The translations under genes were made by a program, and so were the position numbers. A stretch of 64,000 bases of DNA. It comes from Pseudaestuariivita rosea (GTDB taxonomy: Bacteria; Pseudomonadota; Alphaproteobacteria; Rhodobacterales; Rhodobacteraceae). Location of the stretch: NCBI RefSeq assembly GCF_017592335.1, contig NZ_JACNMP010000009.1, positions 62,001-126,000 on the forward strand, read 5' to 3'. Positions 58,851-64,000 of the stretch are shown in pieces (position 1 is the stretch's first letter; each line of letters starts with the position of its first letter). The notes beneath the pieces were generated by a model. That model saw only the letters and a list, made by a program, of their open reading frames with translations, made no database searches and had not been told where the DNA came from.

Positions 58851-59237
58851 TGCCGAATTATCGATAATAGCCGCTAGAATAAACAAGGGCACCATCATAT
58901 CAGTCCTTAGTCCTTAGTCCTTAGTCCTTAGTCCTTAGTCCTTAGTCCTTAGTCCTTAGTCCTTAGTCCTTAGTCCTTAGTCCTTAGTCCTTAAAATTTT
59001 TAATCTCTATCGACACTATACAAACGTTTGGGGCTTTTCTAATCTCTGAATAGTGATTTTACGCCATTTGCTGAGCAACGATATCTTGTTTGGCAGTCGA
59101 GTTTTTAGGTTCACATGCAAACCAGTGTCTAAACTTTACAAGATTTTTTAGTTACGCTACGCACATATATAAATAGAATACATAACGCCGCTCTCAACAA
59201 ATAGTTGTTGACTTACGGATTGCTTGAAAGGTGGGAT
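58851..59237. other. non-coding AT-rich stretch with heptamer array
   Basis: No reading frame of note is seen here. The stretch contains the 13-copy heptamer array (58902-58992), an A/T run after it, and an AT-rich segment of about 150 bases up to the hypothetical gene at 59238, which probably holds its promoter. Base composition is clearly lower in GC than the 57 kb to its left. Confidence 0.6.
58902..58992. repeat. 13 tandem copies of the heptamer AGTCCTT
   Basis: An exact 7-bp unit, AGTCCTT, occurs 13 times in a row without a single mismatch (91 bp). It is followed by an A/T-rich run. Stops occur in every frame, so it is not coding. It lies between the PstS-OmpA terminator and the first gene of the glycan region, about 245 bp upstream of the ATG at 59238. 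Perfect short tandem repeats are prone to slippage. Confidence 0.97.
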
Positions 59238-59915
59238 ATGCTGCAAACAAGCAAACAATTGTGTGATTTGACAGATTTACTTGGTGCTCAGTTCAAACAG
59301 GCGCGTGACGCTTATGCACTTAGTTTGCGGTTGTCACAAATGCCGCATCCGATGGCACATCTTATAGAACTGTTTAAGAAAGACAGTTATACAGAATCCA
59401 AAGAGATCTCTATCGCGCCCTATGTTCCGATCGTTCCAAGGGTCTGGATGGGCTTTGAGAAAAAAGACGATATATCTTTGACACTTCGCCCAATTGAACC
59501 GCGGCTATCGAAAGATGCGGATGAATGTGATCTTGATATTGCAATCACAAATGCAGATCAGTCCAGATGGCTTACAATTGAAGTCGAGTTAGACTTTCAA
59601 TTTTTGCGTCCCGCAGAGTTTCTGACTGTTAGCATCTTTGGGTCTTTCATGCATGCTGCGACCGAAAATCAAGACGATCCACAGGCTGGCGTACAGATAC
59701 TTTATCATGACATGGATGGAACGCGGCACGACCTTTTCCCGCAGCAGGTGCCGATGAAGTTGCCATCTGGTTTTGGGCAGGCACGTGCCGATTTGAAAAC
59801 AGCTTTGCCAGTTGAGTCTCGTATCAATTTCGACCGGTCTGCAATTTTGGCGGTTTTCCTACCGACGAATATATCTTGTATCCAGATATCTGATTTCGCT
59901 GTCTTATTTGAGTGA
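59238..59915 (+). CDS. hypothetical protein of the glycan region, unrecognised
   Basis: A 225-residue protein I do not recognise. It has no signal peptide or membrane helices. The N-terminal 40 residues look helical (TSKQLCDLTDLLGAQFKQARDAYALSLRLSQMP); the rest alternates like a beta-sandwich (YVPIVPRVWMGFEKKDDISLTL, WLTIEVELDFQFLRPAEFLTVSIFGS). I chose the ATG at 59238, preceded by AAGGTGG; the longer frame would start at TTG. It lies 6 bp upstream of the glycosyltransferase frame, so a role in glycan assembly is plausible but unproven. Confidence 0.7.
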   Translation: MLQTSKQLCDLTDLLGAQFKQARDAYALSLRLSQMPHPMAHLIELFKKDSYTESKEISIAPYVPIVPRVWMGFEKKDDISLTLRPIEPRLSKDADECDLDIAITNADQSRWLTIEVELDFQFLRPAEFLTVSIFGSFMHAATENQDDPQAGVQILYHDMDGTRHDLFPQQVPMKLPSGFGQARADLKTALPVESRINFDRSAILAVFLPTNISCIQISDFAVLFE

Positions 59916-59921
59916 TGCGCG

Positions 59922-60971
59922 ATGCGTTCTCCCTCGGTCACCTATAATCAAACGGTCATTGAAGCGGCCGCTGTGGATTTGGCGCATCCTTTTTCGCCAG
60001 CGCGCGCAAAAATGTCGATCCATGTACCCATCATCATTTCGGTTATGAAGAATGAGCTGTCGATTTTACCTGATTTTCTTAGGCATCACCGAGAGCTTGG
60101 CGCAGAAAGGTTTATCATAATCGACAATGGATCGACGGACGGCTCGATACCCTATTGTGCGGCCCAAGCTGATATAGAGCTTCATGTTCTGAGACGACCC
60201 TTCGTATGGCCACGGAAACAGGGGTGGATTTCGCGCATAATTGCACAGACCGGCTATGATCGGTGGTACATTTACCTGGATGCGGACGAACAAATTGTCT
60301 TCGATGGTGCCCCTGAACGCAGTCTGGGCGATCTGGCTGCTTGGGCCGATCAGCAGGGCTTGCGTCGGGTTAGGGGTATGTTGCTTGATATGTATGCGGC
60401 TGGCCCAGTTCTTAAATTTTCGTGGGACGGTAAAAGCCCGCTGGCCAGCGCTTTTCAGTTCTTTGATAGCGACAGCTACGTCGAAGACCACTATCAGATG
60501 CTGATTTCGCGCAAAGGCGGACCGCGTCCACGGAAACTTTCTGCGAGCAATCCAAAGTTCCGGCCGGAAATGACAAAATACCCTCTCTTCAAACCGCGCC
60601 AAGGGGATATAATGGACAACCCCCATTATATCTCACCCCCTAAGGAAAATTTTCTCTCTGGCTGCATGATTGCCTTACAGCATTACAAGTTTCTTCCTGG
60701 TTTTGTGGCCAAAGCTGAAGCCGCAATTAAGAACAAGACATATTTTTCCGGCAGTGCCGAGTATCAAACTTATCTAGCCGCTCTGGCGCCTGAACCTGAG
60801 TTGACACTGCAATACGATGGCACGACCCGATACAACGGACCAAATAATCTGATTGAAGCTGGTTTGATTGATCCAATCGATTGGTCGAATGTCAGACAAA
60901 GGCCACTTTGCATGCCGCGCCGAAAAGCACGACTGCGCCTGATTGAGAAGGACGTAAACCGTGTTGCATGA
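59922..60971 (+). CDS. glycosyltransferase family 2-like protein
   Basis: A 349-residue cytoplasmic glycosyltransferase of the Glyco_tranf_2_4-like group. After about 30 variable residues it shows VPIIISVMKNELSILPDFLRHHRELGAERFIIIDNGSTDGS, then the metal/nucleotide motif YLDADEQIVFDG. YEVEDHY-like segments and a Cys/His-rich middle follow. It ends in a basic tail (MPRRKARLRLIEKDVNRVA). A later in-frame ATG near 60012 would also leave the domain intact. Its last 11 bp overlap the next gene's start, so they are co-translated. The sugar donor is unknown. Confidence 0.85.
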   Translation: MRSPSVTYNQTVIEAAAVDLAHPFSPARAKMSIHVPIIISVMKNELSILPDFLRHHRELGAERFIIIDNGSTDGSIPYCAAQADIELHVLRRPFVWPRKQGWISRIIAQTGYDRWYIYLDADEQIVFDGAPERSLGDLAAWADQQGLRRVRGMLLDMYAAGPVLKFSWDGKSPLASAFQFFDSDSYVEDHYQMLISRKGGPRPRKLSASNPKFRPEMTKYPLFKPRQGDIMDNPHYISPPKENFLSGCMIALQHYKFLPGFVAKAEAAIKNKTYFSGSAEYQTYLAALAPEPELTLQYDGTTRYNGPNNLIEAGLIDPIDWSNVRQRPLCMPRRKARLRLIEKDVNRVA

Positions 60972-63900
60972 AGCGCGTGTGACATACGATGGGCAGAAAT
61001 TCACATTTGTTCATTCTGATCAAGAAGATCATATTTTTAAAACTTTGCAGAACAGCCAGGAATTCTATGAACAAGCGCTTTTGGAGCGGTTGCGCATTTT
61101 GATCAATCCAGATGATCTGGTCTTGGATGTTGGCGCCAATATCGGCACGCATTCTGTTTTCTTTGCCGGTGTCTGCAAAGCGCAAGTCATCGCATTTGAG
61201 CCGAACCAAGCTGCATATGGACTGCTAGAACAGAATATCAAACTGAATCGTTTGAAAAAGCGTGTCACGATGCAGCAGTTTGCTTTGGGTCAGCACTATG
61301 CACAGGGGGCGATCGTCGACAATGACGCAAATAATCTTGGCATGGCAACGGTCGAAGCCGGTCAAGGTGATGTTCAGATTCGCCCACTTGACACAATTGA
61401 TCTGCCCAAAGCGCCACGTTTGATCAAGGTCGACGTCGAAGGGATGGAACGCGAGGTGATTGATGGCGCAATCAAACTGATCAAGCGGGATGCGCCAATT
61501 TTTGTGATTGAGAGTGCAACATTCAATGGTCTGGCGGCAATCACGCGGCGACTTGAACCCTTGGGCTATGATATTCTTGAGGTACATAACTTTACACCCA
61601 CCTATATCCTTGCGCCAAAGATTGAGCTTGAACGTTATATTCGCACGACATTAAGTCAGCTTTTGGCGGGGCAGGCATTTTCTCAACTGGCCGTCGACCA
61701 GCATATCAAAAACCTCAAACATAGCCTGGCGGGCCTGGCTTCATCCGCGGCGATCACCGCTTTGGATGATCGTCTTGTTGAGGGTGGAAAACAAGTTGCC
61801 GATTTGCATGGTACGGCTAAACAACTTCTGGACACGGACACAGCGCAACTACAGCAAATTTCAAATGTCATTGATGTGTTAAATGCGCTGAAGTTACAAA
61901 GTGCACAAAGCACCAGTGAACTAGGAACCAGACTTGATCGCGGACTTTCAGCTGTCGATCAATTGGCCGCACTTATCCAATCAAGCATTTCTGATCTGAG
62001 AGATGACTATCAGAGCGGCGCATCAGATGAACAAGTGCGTGACCTGAAAGACCGGCTTGAGGAGCGCGGCAAGCAGATCGAAGACATCTTAGTGGCGACT
62101 GGTGATCTGCTTAACCAAAGTAAGGATTATTCAGAATCTTCGGACCGATTGCTTGATCGCTTAACAACTGACATCGGTGGCCTTCAAGTACAGGTAGATG
62201 AGCTGGGAAAAACGATTGATCTTCAAAGCTCTGATAAAAAGATAATAGCCATTCAAACAGCTTTATCTGAGATCGAGACGCAAATAGATGCGCTTACACT
62301 GACGACTAAGGATATTCAGGCCACTGGTCAGGCACAAAATACGGACCTTTCAGATATTGCAAATGCCACTGCCGCGTTTTCCTCTGATCTGGCAGATCTG
62401 TACGTATTGAACGATGGTTTGCGGGAAGATGCGATTGTGTCTTCTCACACAAATCGACAACCGATGGAAATTCCCTATCTGGCAATGGCTTTGCACAAAG
62501 ATTGGTGTGACTGGCGACATCATCAGAAAGTTCGTCTTGGGTCCAATGGTCATTTCGAAATCCAGCAGGCAAACAGTACACCAGGTGTTCAGTCACCCAG
62601 GCTGCCTGTCCCGGGTCCAGGTCTGCATTCGGTCCAGATCGCCTTTGAAAATGAACCCGGTTCCAATTGGATATTGCAGATTCAAGCCGCCGTAACGGGT
62701 GAGGTTTTGCACCCCGATGTTCCACTGGTGAAGATAAAAAACGATATAAAGATCTATCTGCCGCGCCGGATATCTGAGATTTTGTTGAAAGTAGTATCGC
62801 GACGACCTTTCATCGGTCAGACCGCACAGTTGAAAGAAGTCATACTTTCAAAGGTGGACGATGAAGGCGTATATCGGCATCACGCGAAGATGATCGCTGC
62901 GCCAGTCATTGCTTCGATGGCTTCCATCCCGTCCCGTCGCGATATGCTTTACGATAGTGTTCATTCGATGTTGCCGCAATGTGACGAAGTAAGAATCTTT
63001 TTGAACGGCTACGGTGATGTACCAGACTTTCTGAACCATCCGCGCGTCCGCATTCGCCGATCCGAAGACTACGATGACATGGGCGATGCCGGAAAGTTCG
63101 GCTGGTTCGATGAGCCCGATCCGCCGGGCTATCGTGTCATAATGGACGATGACCTAGTCTATCCGCCTGATTTGGTCAAAAAACTTGTGGGGAAAGTGCG
63201 TGAAACGGGCGACCGTGCCATGGTGGGTTTGCATGGTGTGATCATCAGACAGCCCATCACAGAATACTACAAGCCCGAGAACCGTCGCGTTTTTCATTTT
63301 CAAAACCGTACCGATGCTACGATCCCAGTACACGTATTGGCCACATGTGTTATGTGCGCACATTCTGACCAGTTGTCCCTGTCACGCGCTGAATTCATGT
63401 TCCGCAACATGGGTGATATCTGGATTGCGAAACATGCAAAAGAAAACAGAATACCGCTTCTTGCAATGGATCGTCCGTTCAAGTGGGTCCGTGAAAACCA
63501 GCAAAACAGAAAGTATGAAACGATCTATGCAAATTCTCTTAAAAAGACAGGATCGTCTTTTGATAGCTCGTCGATACAGGACGCCGTCTTAAGGGGTGTC
63601 GGCCCGCTGAGTTTTCTGTCGATTGACAAATCGCTTGCCGTTTTCGTGCTTGCGGTCGGCGATGCACAAGATCTTAAGGCGGGCTTGGACAGTTTTTACA
63701 CCACTTGCGGCGATCATTACCGCTGGAAGCTGATTTTGCTGGCGATCCGACCCAACGAACACCTGTCTCGTGCATTAAATAGCGTCGAGCTTAAAACAGA
63801 AATTCATGTGATCGAGGCGCGCGACACAACTGATGCTCAGGCATCGCTGAACGCCTTGCTGGCAGATCTGCCGTTTGATGTTGGTCTTTATCTGGACGGA

Positions 63901-64000
63901 CGCTGGCGCTGCACCGATGAAACTTGGGCAAAAGAGGGTCTAGTAACCTTTTTGGGTAGCAAATTGCCAGGCATGGCATTGGCGCATTCCCATGGCCAGG
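60961..64000 (+). CDS. giant FkbM methyltransferase-coiled-coil-glycosyltransferase fusion protein (3' truncated by window)
   Basis: One uninterrupted frame of 1013 codons runs off the end. The start is GTG at 60961, with AGAAGGA at 60946-60952; no ATG fits better. Residues 1-220 form a FkbM methyltransferase: SAM site DVGANIG (56-62), FEPNQ, and IKVDVEGMEREVIDGA. Residues about 230-490 are rich in Gln, Leu and Asp with heptad spacing, a probable coiled coil. About 495-635 looks beta-rich. About 645-860 resembles a GT-A glycosyltransferase: MASIPSRRD (653) and a DDD metal motif at 729-731. From about 885 a second glycosyltransferase-like Rossmann part begins (SLAVFVLAVGDAQDLKAG). It overlaps the preceding glycosyltransferase by 11 bp. 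It likely builds and methylates a surface glycan; the substrate is unknown. Confidence 0.85.
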   Translation, partial: MLHEARVTYDGQKFTFVHSDQEDHIFKTLQNSQEFYEQALLERLRILINPDDLVLDVGANIGTHSVFFAGVCKAQVIAFEPNQAAYGLLEQNIKLNRLKKRVTMQQFALGQHYAQGAIVDNDANNLGMATVEAGQGDVQIRPLDTIDLPKAPRLIKVDVEGMEREVIDGAIKLIKRDAPIFVIESATFNGLAAITRRLEPLGYDILEVHNFTPTYILAPKIELERYIRTTLSQLLAGQAFSQLAVDQHIKNLKHSLAGLASSAAITALDDRLVEGGKQVADLHGTAKQLLDTDTAQLQQISNVIDVLNALKLQSAQSTSELGTRLDRGLSAVDQLAALIQSSISDLRDDYQSGASDEQVRDLKDRLEERGKQIEDILVATGDLLNQSKDYSESSDRLLDRLTTDIGGLQVQVDELGKTIDLQSSDKKIIAIQTALSEIETQIDALTLTTKDIQATGQAQNTDLSDIANATAAFSSDLADLYVLNDGLREDAIVSSHTNRQPMEIPYLAMALHKDWCDWRHHQKVRLGSNGHFEIQQANSTPGVQSPRLPVPGPGLHSVQIAFENEPGSNWILQIQAAVTGEVLHPDVPLVKIKNDIKIYLPRRISEILLKVVSRRPFIGQTAQLKEVILSKVDDEGVYRHHAKMIAAPVIASMASIPSRRDMLYDSVHSMLPQCDEVRIFLNGYGDVPDFLNHPRVRIRRSEDYDDMGDAGKFGWFDEPDPPGYRVIMDDDLVYPPDLVKKLVGKVRETGDRAMVGLHGVIIRQPITEYYKPENRRVFHFQNRTDATIPVHVLATCVMCAHSDQLSLSRAEFMFRNMGDIWIAKHAKENRIPLLAMDRPFKWVRENQQNRKYETIYANSLKKTGSSFDSSSIQDAVLRGVGPLSFLSIDKSLAVFVLAVGDAQDLKAGLDSFYTTCGDHYRWKLILLAIRPNEHLSRALNSVELKTEIHVIEARDTTDAQASLNALLADLPFDVGLYLDGRWRCTDETWAKEGLVTFLGSKLPGMALAHSHGQ

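Follow-up and report, generated by a model that had tools for sequence, protein, structure and literature searches.

A 1415-codon gene of Pseudaestuariivita rosea that joins an FkbM methyltransferase, a coiled coil and glycosyltransferase domains: a candidate single-chain machine for a surface glycan

Could one polypeptide polymerise a surface glycan, measure it and cap it? The question is raised by a gene that runs over the end of a 64,000-nucleotide stretch of Pseudaestuariivita rosea DNA (hereafter the window), which represents positions 62001-126000 of its parent contig (NZ_JACNMP010000009.1). A preliminary description, made from the window alone, had noted a frame open from GTG 60961 to the window end, and had read in it a methyltransferase, a coiled coil and glycosyltransferase (GT)-like domains. 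The frame was confirmed (stop-free to 63999, 1013 codons). Sequence past the window, read from the parent contig, shows a gene of 1415 codons that ends at contig position 127208 (equivalent to window position 65208), and the frame is continuous, with neither the stop nor the frameshift that would have spoken against a fusion. This downstream part, which the preliminary description had proposed to obtain, adds a third GT domain, of family GT25, that lay outside its view.

Domains of the protein

The domain order is FkbM - coiled coil - carbohydrate-binding module (CBM)-like - KfiA-type GT - degenerate GT2-like - GT25. The features are as follows.

60961..64000, + strand: part of the 1415-codon gene inside the window (stop-free frame; remainder taken from the parent contig)
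60976..61620, + strand: FkbM-family S-adenosylmethionine (SAM) methyltransferase domain, residues about 6-220 (TIGR01444, PF05050, Foldseek)
61663..62400, + strand: coiled-coil region, residues about 235-480 (heptad periodicity, AlphaFold helices)
62476..62880, + strand: CBM-like beta sandwich, residues about 506-640 (alignment of relatives, AlphaFold, Foldseek, VIA-align)
62902..63540, + strand: KfiA/PmHS2-type N-acetylglucosamine (GlcNAc)-transferase-like domain, residues 648-860 (phmmer, family profile, Foldseek)
63145..63153, + strand: DDD metal/nucleotide-sugar motif, residues 729-731 (family alignment)
63613..64000, + strand: degenerate GT2-like domain, from about residue 885 to about residue 1060 past the window (alignment, BLASTP, hhalign)
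Outside the window: GT25 domain (PF01755), residues 1126-1390 (profile over cut-off)

The full FkbM methyltransferase proposed for the N-terminus is supported by two profiles (TIGR01444, E 6.3e-27, 94.8 bits versus a cut-off of 37.7; PF05050, E 7.4e-16, 59.2 bits versus 22.7), by a fold match of the predicted model to 2py6 (Foldseek E 3.2e-8), and by the alignment, in which the SAM-binding motif DVGANIG and the KVDVEG motif are intact. The coiled-coil-like stretch of about 260 residues also stood up to analysis. Over residues 229-505, the 3.5-residue hydrophobic periodicity was 24.7, versus a mean of 9.8 and a maximum of 20.4 for shuffled sequences (0 of 500 shuffles reached the observed value), with a peak at residues 270-390. 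AlphaFold placed long helices across the region at low confidence (predicted local distance difference test, pLDDT, mostly 40-57). Because the predicted template modelling score (pTM) of the whole-window model was 0.37, the arrangement of the domains is not readable from this model.

The beta-rich part that follows is a predicted beta sandwich resembling CBMs, with a DWRHHQ...STPG motif that is common to the relatives in the alignment. Modelled alone, with four relatives, the domain reached a pLDDT of 84.9 and a pTM of 0.80. Its best Foldseek match was CBM35 (E 5.8e-5), and its best VIA-align match was CBM4 (Z 11.2, root-mean-square deviation 2.6 over 127 residues).

A GT-A-like domain with DDD at residues 729-731 had been described at exactly this position, and can now be assigned to the KfiA/PmHS2 family, which we take to be CAZy family GT45. 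Using phmmer, the domain matched heparosan synthase 2 (PmHS2, 8vh7; E 2e-27) and KfiA (5z8b; E 1.8e-14). A profile of the family matched the same two proteins with E-values of 7.9e-53 and 1.5e-33, respectively, and Foldseek supported the fold (E 1.3e-10). The DDD motif is invariant across 11 family sequences, and a GDAGKF motif is also conserved. The domain is probably an alpha-GlcNAc transferase or another UDP-N-acetylhexosamine transferase. PmHS2 and Escherichia coli K5 KfiA are thus akin to this domain by sequence and fold; unlike the present protein, PmHS2 lacks a methyltransferase, a coiled coil and a CBM-like domain, and KfiA stands alone.

The further glycosyltransferase-like start noted near the window end is indeed the beginning of a GT2-like domain, but one that has lost its catalytic motifs. 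The domain aligns with the intact GT2 module of four relatives (BLASTP 6e-4, hhalign 1.7e-4), and in the alignment with co-linear relatives IRP replaces DDG, LDG replaces DDD, and about 80-100 residues are missing. Residues about 890-1060 had no Pfam match, PF00535 included. Altogether, the domain looks like a dead GT2. PmHS2 pairs its KfiA-type domain with an active second GT; an active bifunctional polymerase of this heparosan-synthase-like kind was also considered for the present protein, and is weakened by the absence of the Asp motifs from the GT2-like domain. The GT25 domain, in contrast, has its LDDD motif intact, is 41-44% identical to its relatives, and exceeds the PF01755 cut-off of 24 bits both in the whole protein (25.8 bits) and alone (29.8 bits). 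The preliminary description had made its case depend on a GT fold after residue 640; the KfiA/PmHS2-type domain lies there, and then GT25.

Relatives in other genomes and contigs

A full-length relative was not found among the 147 related genomes searched, and a scan of genome contigs with the whole protein gave no match. A scan with an alignment of the C-terminal part identified four loci in metagenome-assembled genomes (MAGs; L096-L099). A 398-genome search of the phylum brought up no further large KfiA-bearing frames.

The protein encoded at L096 (JALGYY010000044.1) is co-linear with the P. rosea protein at 30-42% identity (FkbM - coiled coil - CBM-like - KfiA-type - GT2 - GT25, plus an extra C-terminal part), and its GT2 module is intact. 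The gene is flanked by genes for an ABC-2 permease, an ABC ATPase and a GT4-type protein. The extra C-terminal part (about 240 residues, L096:12812-13534) looks sulfotransferase-like by eye and has no match in Pfam or NCBIfam. In the three other loci, from alphaproteobacterial MAGs, the CBM-like - KfiA-type - GT2 - GT25 core stands behind a galectin-like N-terminus (PF00337). The frames (L097:4701-8534, L098:8248-11871 and L099:9209-12880) consist of galectin-like domains over the profile cut-off, a short linker and the multi-GT part.

These independent records bear on the trivial explanation that an assembly or frame artefact has joined separate genes. Nothing but the position of the window end inside the gene hints at it. 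The same module order in L096, and in L097-L099 for the C-terminal half, together with the continuity of the gene in its contig, makes an artefact practically negligible, and we rejected it on the strength of the co-linear relatives.

Sinorhizobium meliloti has two different fusions (L037 and L038) that share the order FkbM - coiled coil - KfiA-type GT - further GT-like part with the P. rosea protein (28-37% identity in the shared domains). They differ from it in that neither a CBM-like domain nor GT25 was detected in either, and in the C-terminal part, which in L037 is GT4-like (weak match) and in L038 an intact GT2. The L038 fusion (L038:7527-10958) has a coiled coil of seven-residue repeats (KLEADKA) that are almost perfect, an arrangement in which slippage could lengthen or shorten the rod. 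Open reading frames around both genes read by eye as KpsM-, KpsT-, KpsE- and capsule-modification-like. The two loci are organised like the strain-variable rkp-3 K-antigen region, which is reported to harbor strain-specific methyl- and glycosyltransferases with distant homologues only (PMC5429615). For alphaproteobacterial K-antigens, fusions of this type lie in strain-variable symbiosis loci.

A similar FkbM - coiled coil - KfiA-type fusion is present on an IMG/VR contig (L102). Two phage-like contigs, L100 (402 kb) and L122 (139 kb), have the reverse order, KfiA-type - FkbM, in frames of over 1200 residues (L100:3312-7112 and L122:1526-5440); in L122, FkbM is only about 50 residues away from the KfiA domain. 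A Roseivivax plasmid protein (L040) matches the CBM-like - KfiA-type pair alone. FkbM-bearing long frames of other genomes (L091-L095) were also considered, and turned out to be other fusions with no KfiA match.

Because the relatives combine FkbM, CBM-like, KfiA-type and GT modules differently, the parts are modules that recur in varying order, and the joining of FkbM and KfiA on one chain is a repeated solution. The co-linear set, with either an FkbM or a galectin-like end on a CBM - KfiA-type - GT2 - GT25 core, shows how such machines evolve through the exchange of end modules. The spacing between the FkbM SAM motif and the KfiA-type DDD also varies, from 419 residues (L102) over 491 (L037), 493 (L038) and 605 (L096) to 673 in the P. 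rosea protein, a variation that would allow a strain-set ruler and is not proof of one.

Capping, internal methylation or decay

In terminator proteins of ABC (ATP-binding cassette) transporter-dependent glycan assembly, a coiled coil bears the terminating enzyme at its distal end, and for E. coli O9 and Klebsiella pneumoniae O12 this coiled coil acts as a molecular ruler; the polymerase GTs are either on the same chain (O12 WbbB, O7 ORF6) or apart (PMC11231755). The P. rosea protein has this layout: its coiled coil has a catalytic domain on one side and the GT modules on the other. By analogy, a capping and ruler comparison fits the design rule.

The preliminary description had chosen WbdD as the analogue. 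WbdD, the protein of E. coli O9 and of K. pneumoniae O3 and O5, also has an N-terminal methyltransferase followed by a coiled coil, but it has no GT module, its polymerase WbdA being separate, and in O3/O9 it includes a kinase. It is not the closest analogue, because a kinase is absent here and the GTs of the WbdD system are on a separate protein. A direct relationship to WbdD was rejected on these grounds and because of the lack of a sequence match: a search of PDB sequences, with matches taken up to E 1, gave no WbdD chain. Closer designs are those of K. pneumoniae O7 ORF6 and O12 WbbB. ORF6, which consists of methyltransferase, kinase, CBM, coiled coil and two GT2 modules (PMC11231755), resembles the P. 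rosea protein as a single chain with an N-terminal methyltransferase, a CBM or CBM-like domain, a coiled coil and C-terminal GTs; it belongs to an ABC-transporter-dependent pathway, as the P. rosea protein may. Differences are the kinase, the place of the CBM before rather than after the coiled coil, and the GTs, which are two GT2 modules in ORF6 versus KfiA-type, dead GT2 and GT25 here. WbbB likewise has terminator and polymerase modules on one polypeptide with a coiled coil in between (PMC11231755), but its terminator is a beta-Kdo (3-deoxy-D-manno-oct-2-ulosonic acid) transferase and its GT modules found families GT99, GT102 and GT103. As all domain families are known and single-chain machines of the same logic have been characterised, we regard the protein as a known kind of machine with a new module set. 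Neither FkbM-GT fusions nor an FkbM - coiled coil - CBM - KfiA-type - GT25 set was described in the literature searched, largely without subscription journals.

We tentatively favour, at a little less than even probability, a terminator, ruler and polymerase on one chain for a surface glycan that is built in the cytoplasm and exported by an ABC transporter (KPS/K-antigen type). The KfiA-type and GT25 domains would add sugars of the repeat, and the neighbouring GT2 protein (59922-60971) would perhaps replace the activity of the intact GT2 module of the relatives. The CBM-like domain would hold the nascent chain. FkbM, which the coiled coil separates from the GTs, would O-methylate the non-reducing end so that growth stops, and the rod would set the length at which the chain end reaches FkbM, as in O7 ORF6 and O12 WbbB. 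This reading draws on domain content and order, on co-linear L096 beside ABC transporter genes, on the K-antigen-type fusions of S. meliloti, on the Kps genes of the host, on the characterised precedents (PMC11231755), and on the intact Asp motifs of the KfiA-type and GT25 domains and intact SAM motifs. The capping machine suggested earlier is plausible, and better supported than when first stated; methyl capping and the role as a ruler are what we infer. If the ruler reading is true, the questions of how capsule chains are capped, measured and polymerised would be testable on one polypeptide, and the range of terminator/ruler proteins, characterised for O-antigens, would come to include the K-antigens of Alphaproteobacteria.

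Export genes are available in this organism. KpsM-, KpsE- and KpsT-like genes are found on contig C28, and KpsS, a KpsC-like protein and a Wza-type exporter on contig C70. With these genes present, a KPS pathway exists in the host, not linked to the fusion gene, and the protein may feed it.

Several observations weigh against a capping machine. The gene is not beside export genes in this genome, as the Kps genes are on other contigs. The transporter ATPases have 219 residues in the S. meliloti loci, 219-221 across S. meliloti and this genome, and about 270 in L096 if the start follows the permease gene; by length alone, they are too short for the cap-reading C-terminal CBM of Wzt-type systems. 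A kinase domain is absent beside the methyltransferase, from which just about 15 residues lead to the coiled coil; a plain methyl cap would need no kinase, unlike methylphosphate terminators. In L097-L099, FkbM is replaced by a galectin-like domain, so the core can do without the methyltransferase. Finally, the LGTG motif of the KfiA family is LATC here, even though G-T-G is near-invariant in the other alignment rows, so the KfiA-type domain could be altered too. LGTG is not known as a defining catalytic motif of the family.

Some rhizobial K-antigens contain O-methyl sugars, and FkbM might correspondingly methylate an internal sugar of each repeat, the coiled coil being a tether or oligomerisation device without any part in termination or length control. 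We consider this a real possibility, with a probability of about a third. In its favour, the KPS-type ATPases of related loci leave no space for a CBM that binds the cap, and in L100 and L122 FkbM is C-terminal after KfiA, the short gap in L122 being better suited to co-modification than to a distal terminator. However, the cellular-type forms (the P. rosea protein, L096, L037, L038 and L102) always have an N-terminal FkbM and a long coiled coil before the GTs, which is the layout of the characterised terminators (PMC11231755).

The gene might also be decaying, its product having lost the polymerase role and retained a methyltransferase with a single side-chain GT25, or being non-functional. 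The loss of DDG, DDD and about 80-100 residues from the GT2-like domain, LATC in the KfiA-type domain, the position in a low-GC island near a phage terminase gene and the lack of a full-length relative in the 147 genomes would all agree with decay. Yet 1415 codons have stayed open without stop or frameshift, all other motifs are intact, and GT25 has kept 41-44% identity to relatives. LATC need not mean decay either, because a KfiA-type paralogue of the host genome also departs from LGTG (VATN). Decay seems rather improbable.

Returning to chain termination, a more specific proposal is that FkbM terminates the chains of a KPS-type (KpsMTE) capsule in a self-contained machine, with length control by the coiled coil and without a cap-reading CBM on the ATPase, and that lineages swap the modules of this set (FkbM, CBM-like, KfiA-type, GT2, GT25), to the point of FkbM being exchanged for a galectin-like domain. 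In this full form we consider the proposal unlikely, if worth keeping in mind.

Neighbouring genes

Two genes precede the fusion gene.

59922..60971, + strand: GT2 gene (PF13704, E 1.9e-19), adjoining the fusion gene
59205..59915, + strand: gene for a 236-residue protein without a family match, 7 bases upstream of the GT2 gene

The fusion gene overlaps the stop of the GT2 gene (60971) by 11 bases. The 236-residue orphan, the probable start of the operon, had no match in Pfam, NCBIfam or PHROGs; it was considered as a second CBM, an idea dropped when hhalign showed no relation to the CBM-like domain. Orphan and fusion gene lie in a stretch of low guanine-cytosine (GC) content (0.44-0.51; between 44 and 57 kb, values are mostly 0.53-0.59). 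At the nucleotide level, the neighbouring stretch has its nearest matches in Ruegeria plasmids (about 75%).

Downstream of the fusion gene are two small methyltransferase genes and then the phage terminase gene. This TerL gene (PF03354) and a transposase-like start follow the glycan genes on opposite strands near the contig end (L004:6350-7708), and represent a possible mobile junction of the low-GC island.

Elsewhere in the host genome, a solo KfiA-type GT gene is paired with a small methyltransferase gene (L005:4813-6418; contig C58, about 116812-118417). On its two sides are genes that look like those for the flavoprotein and iron-sulphur subunits of succinate dehydrogenase.

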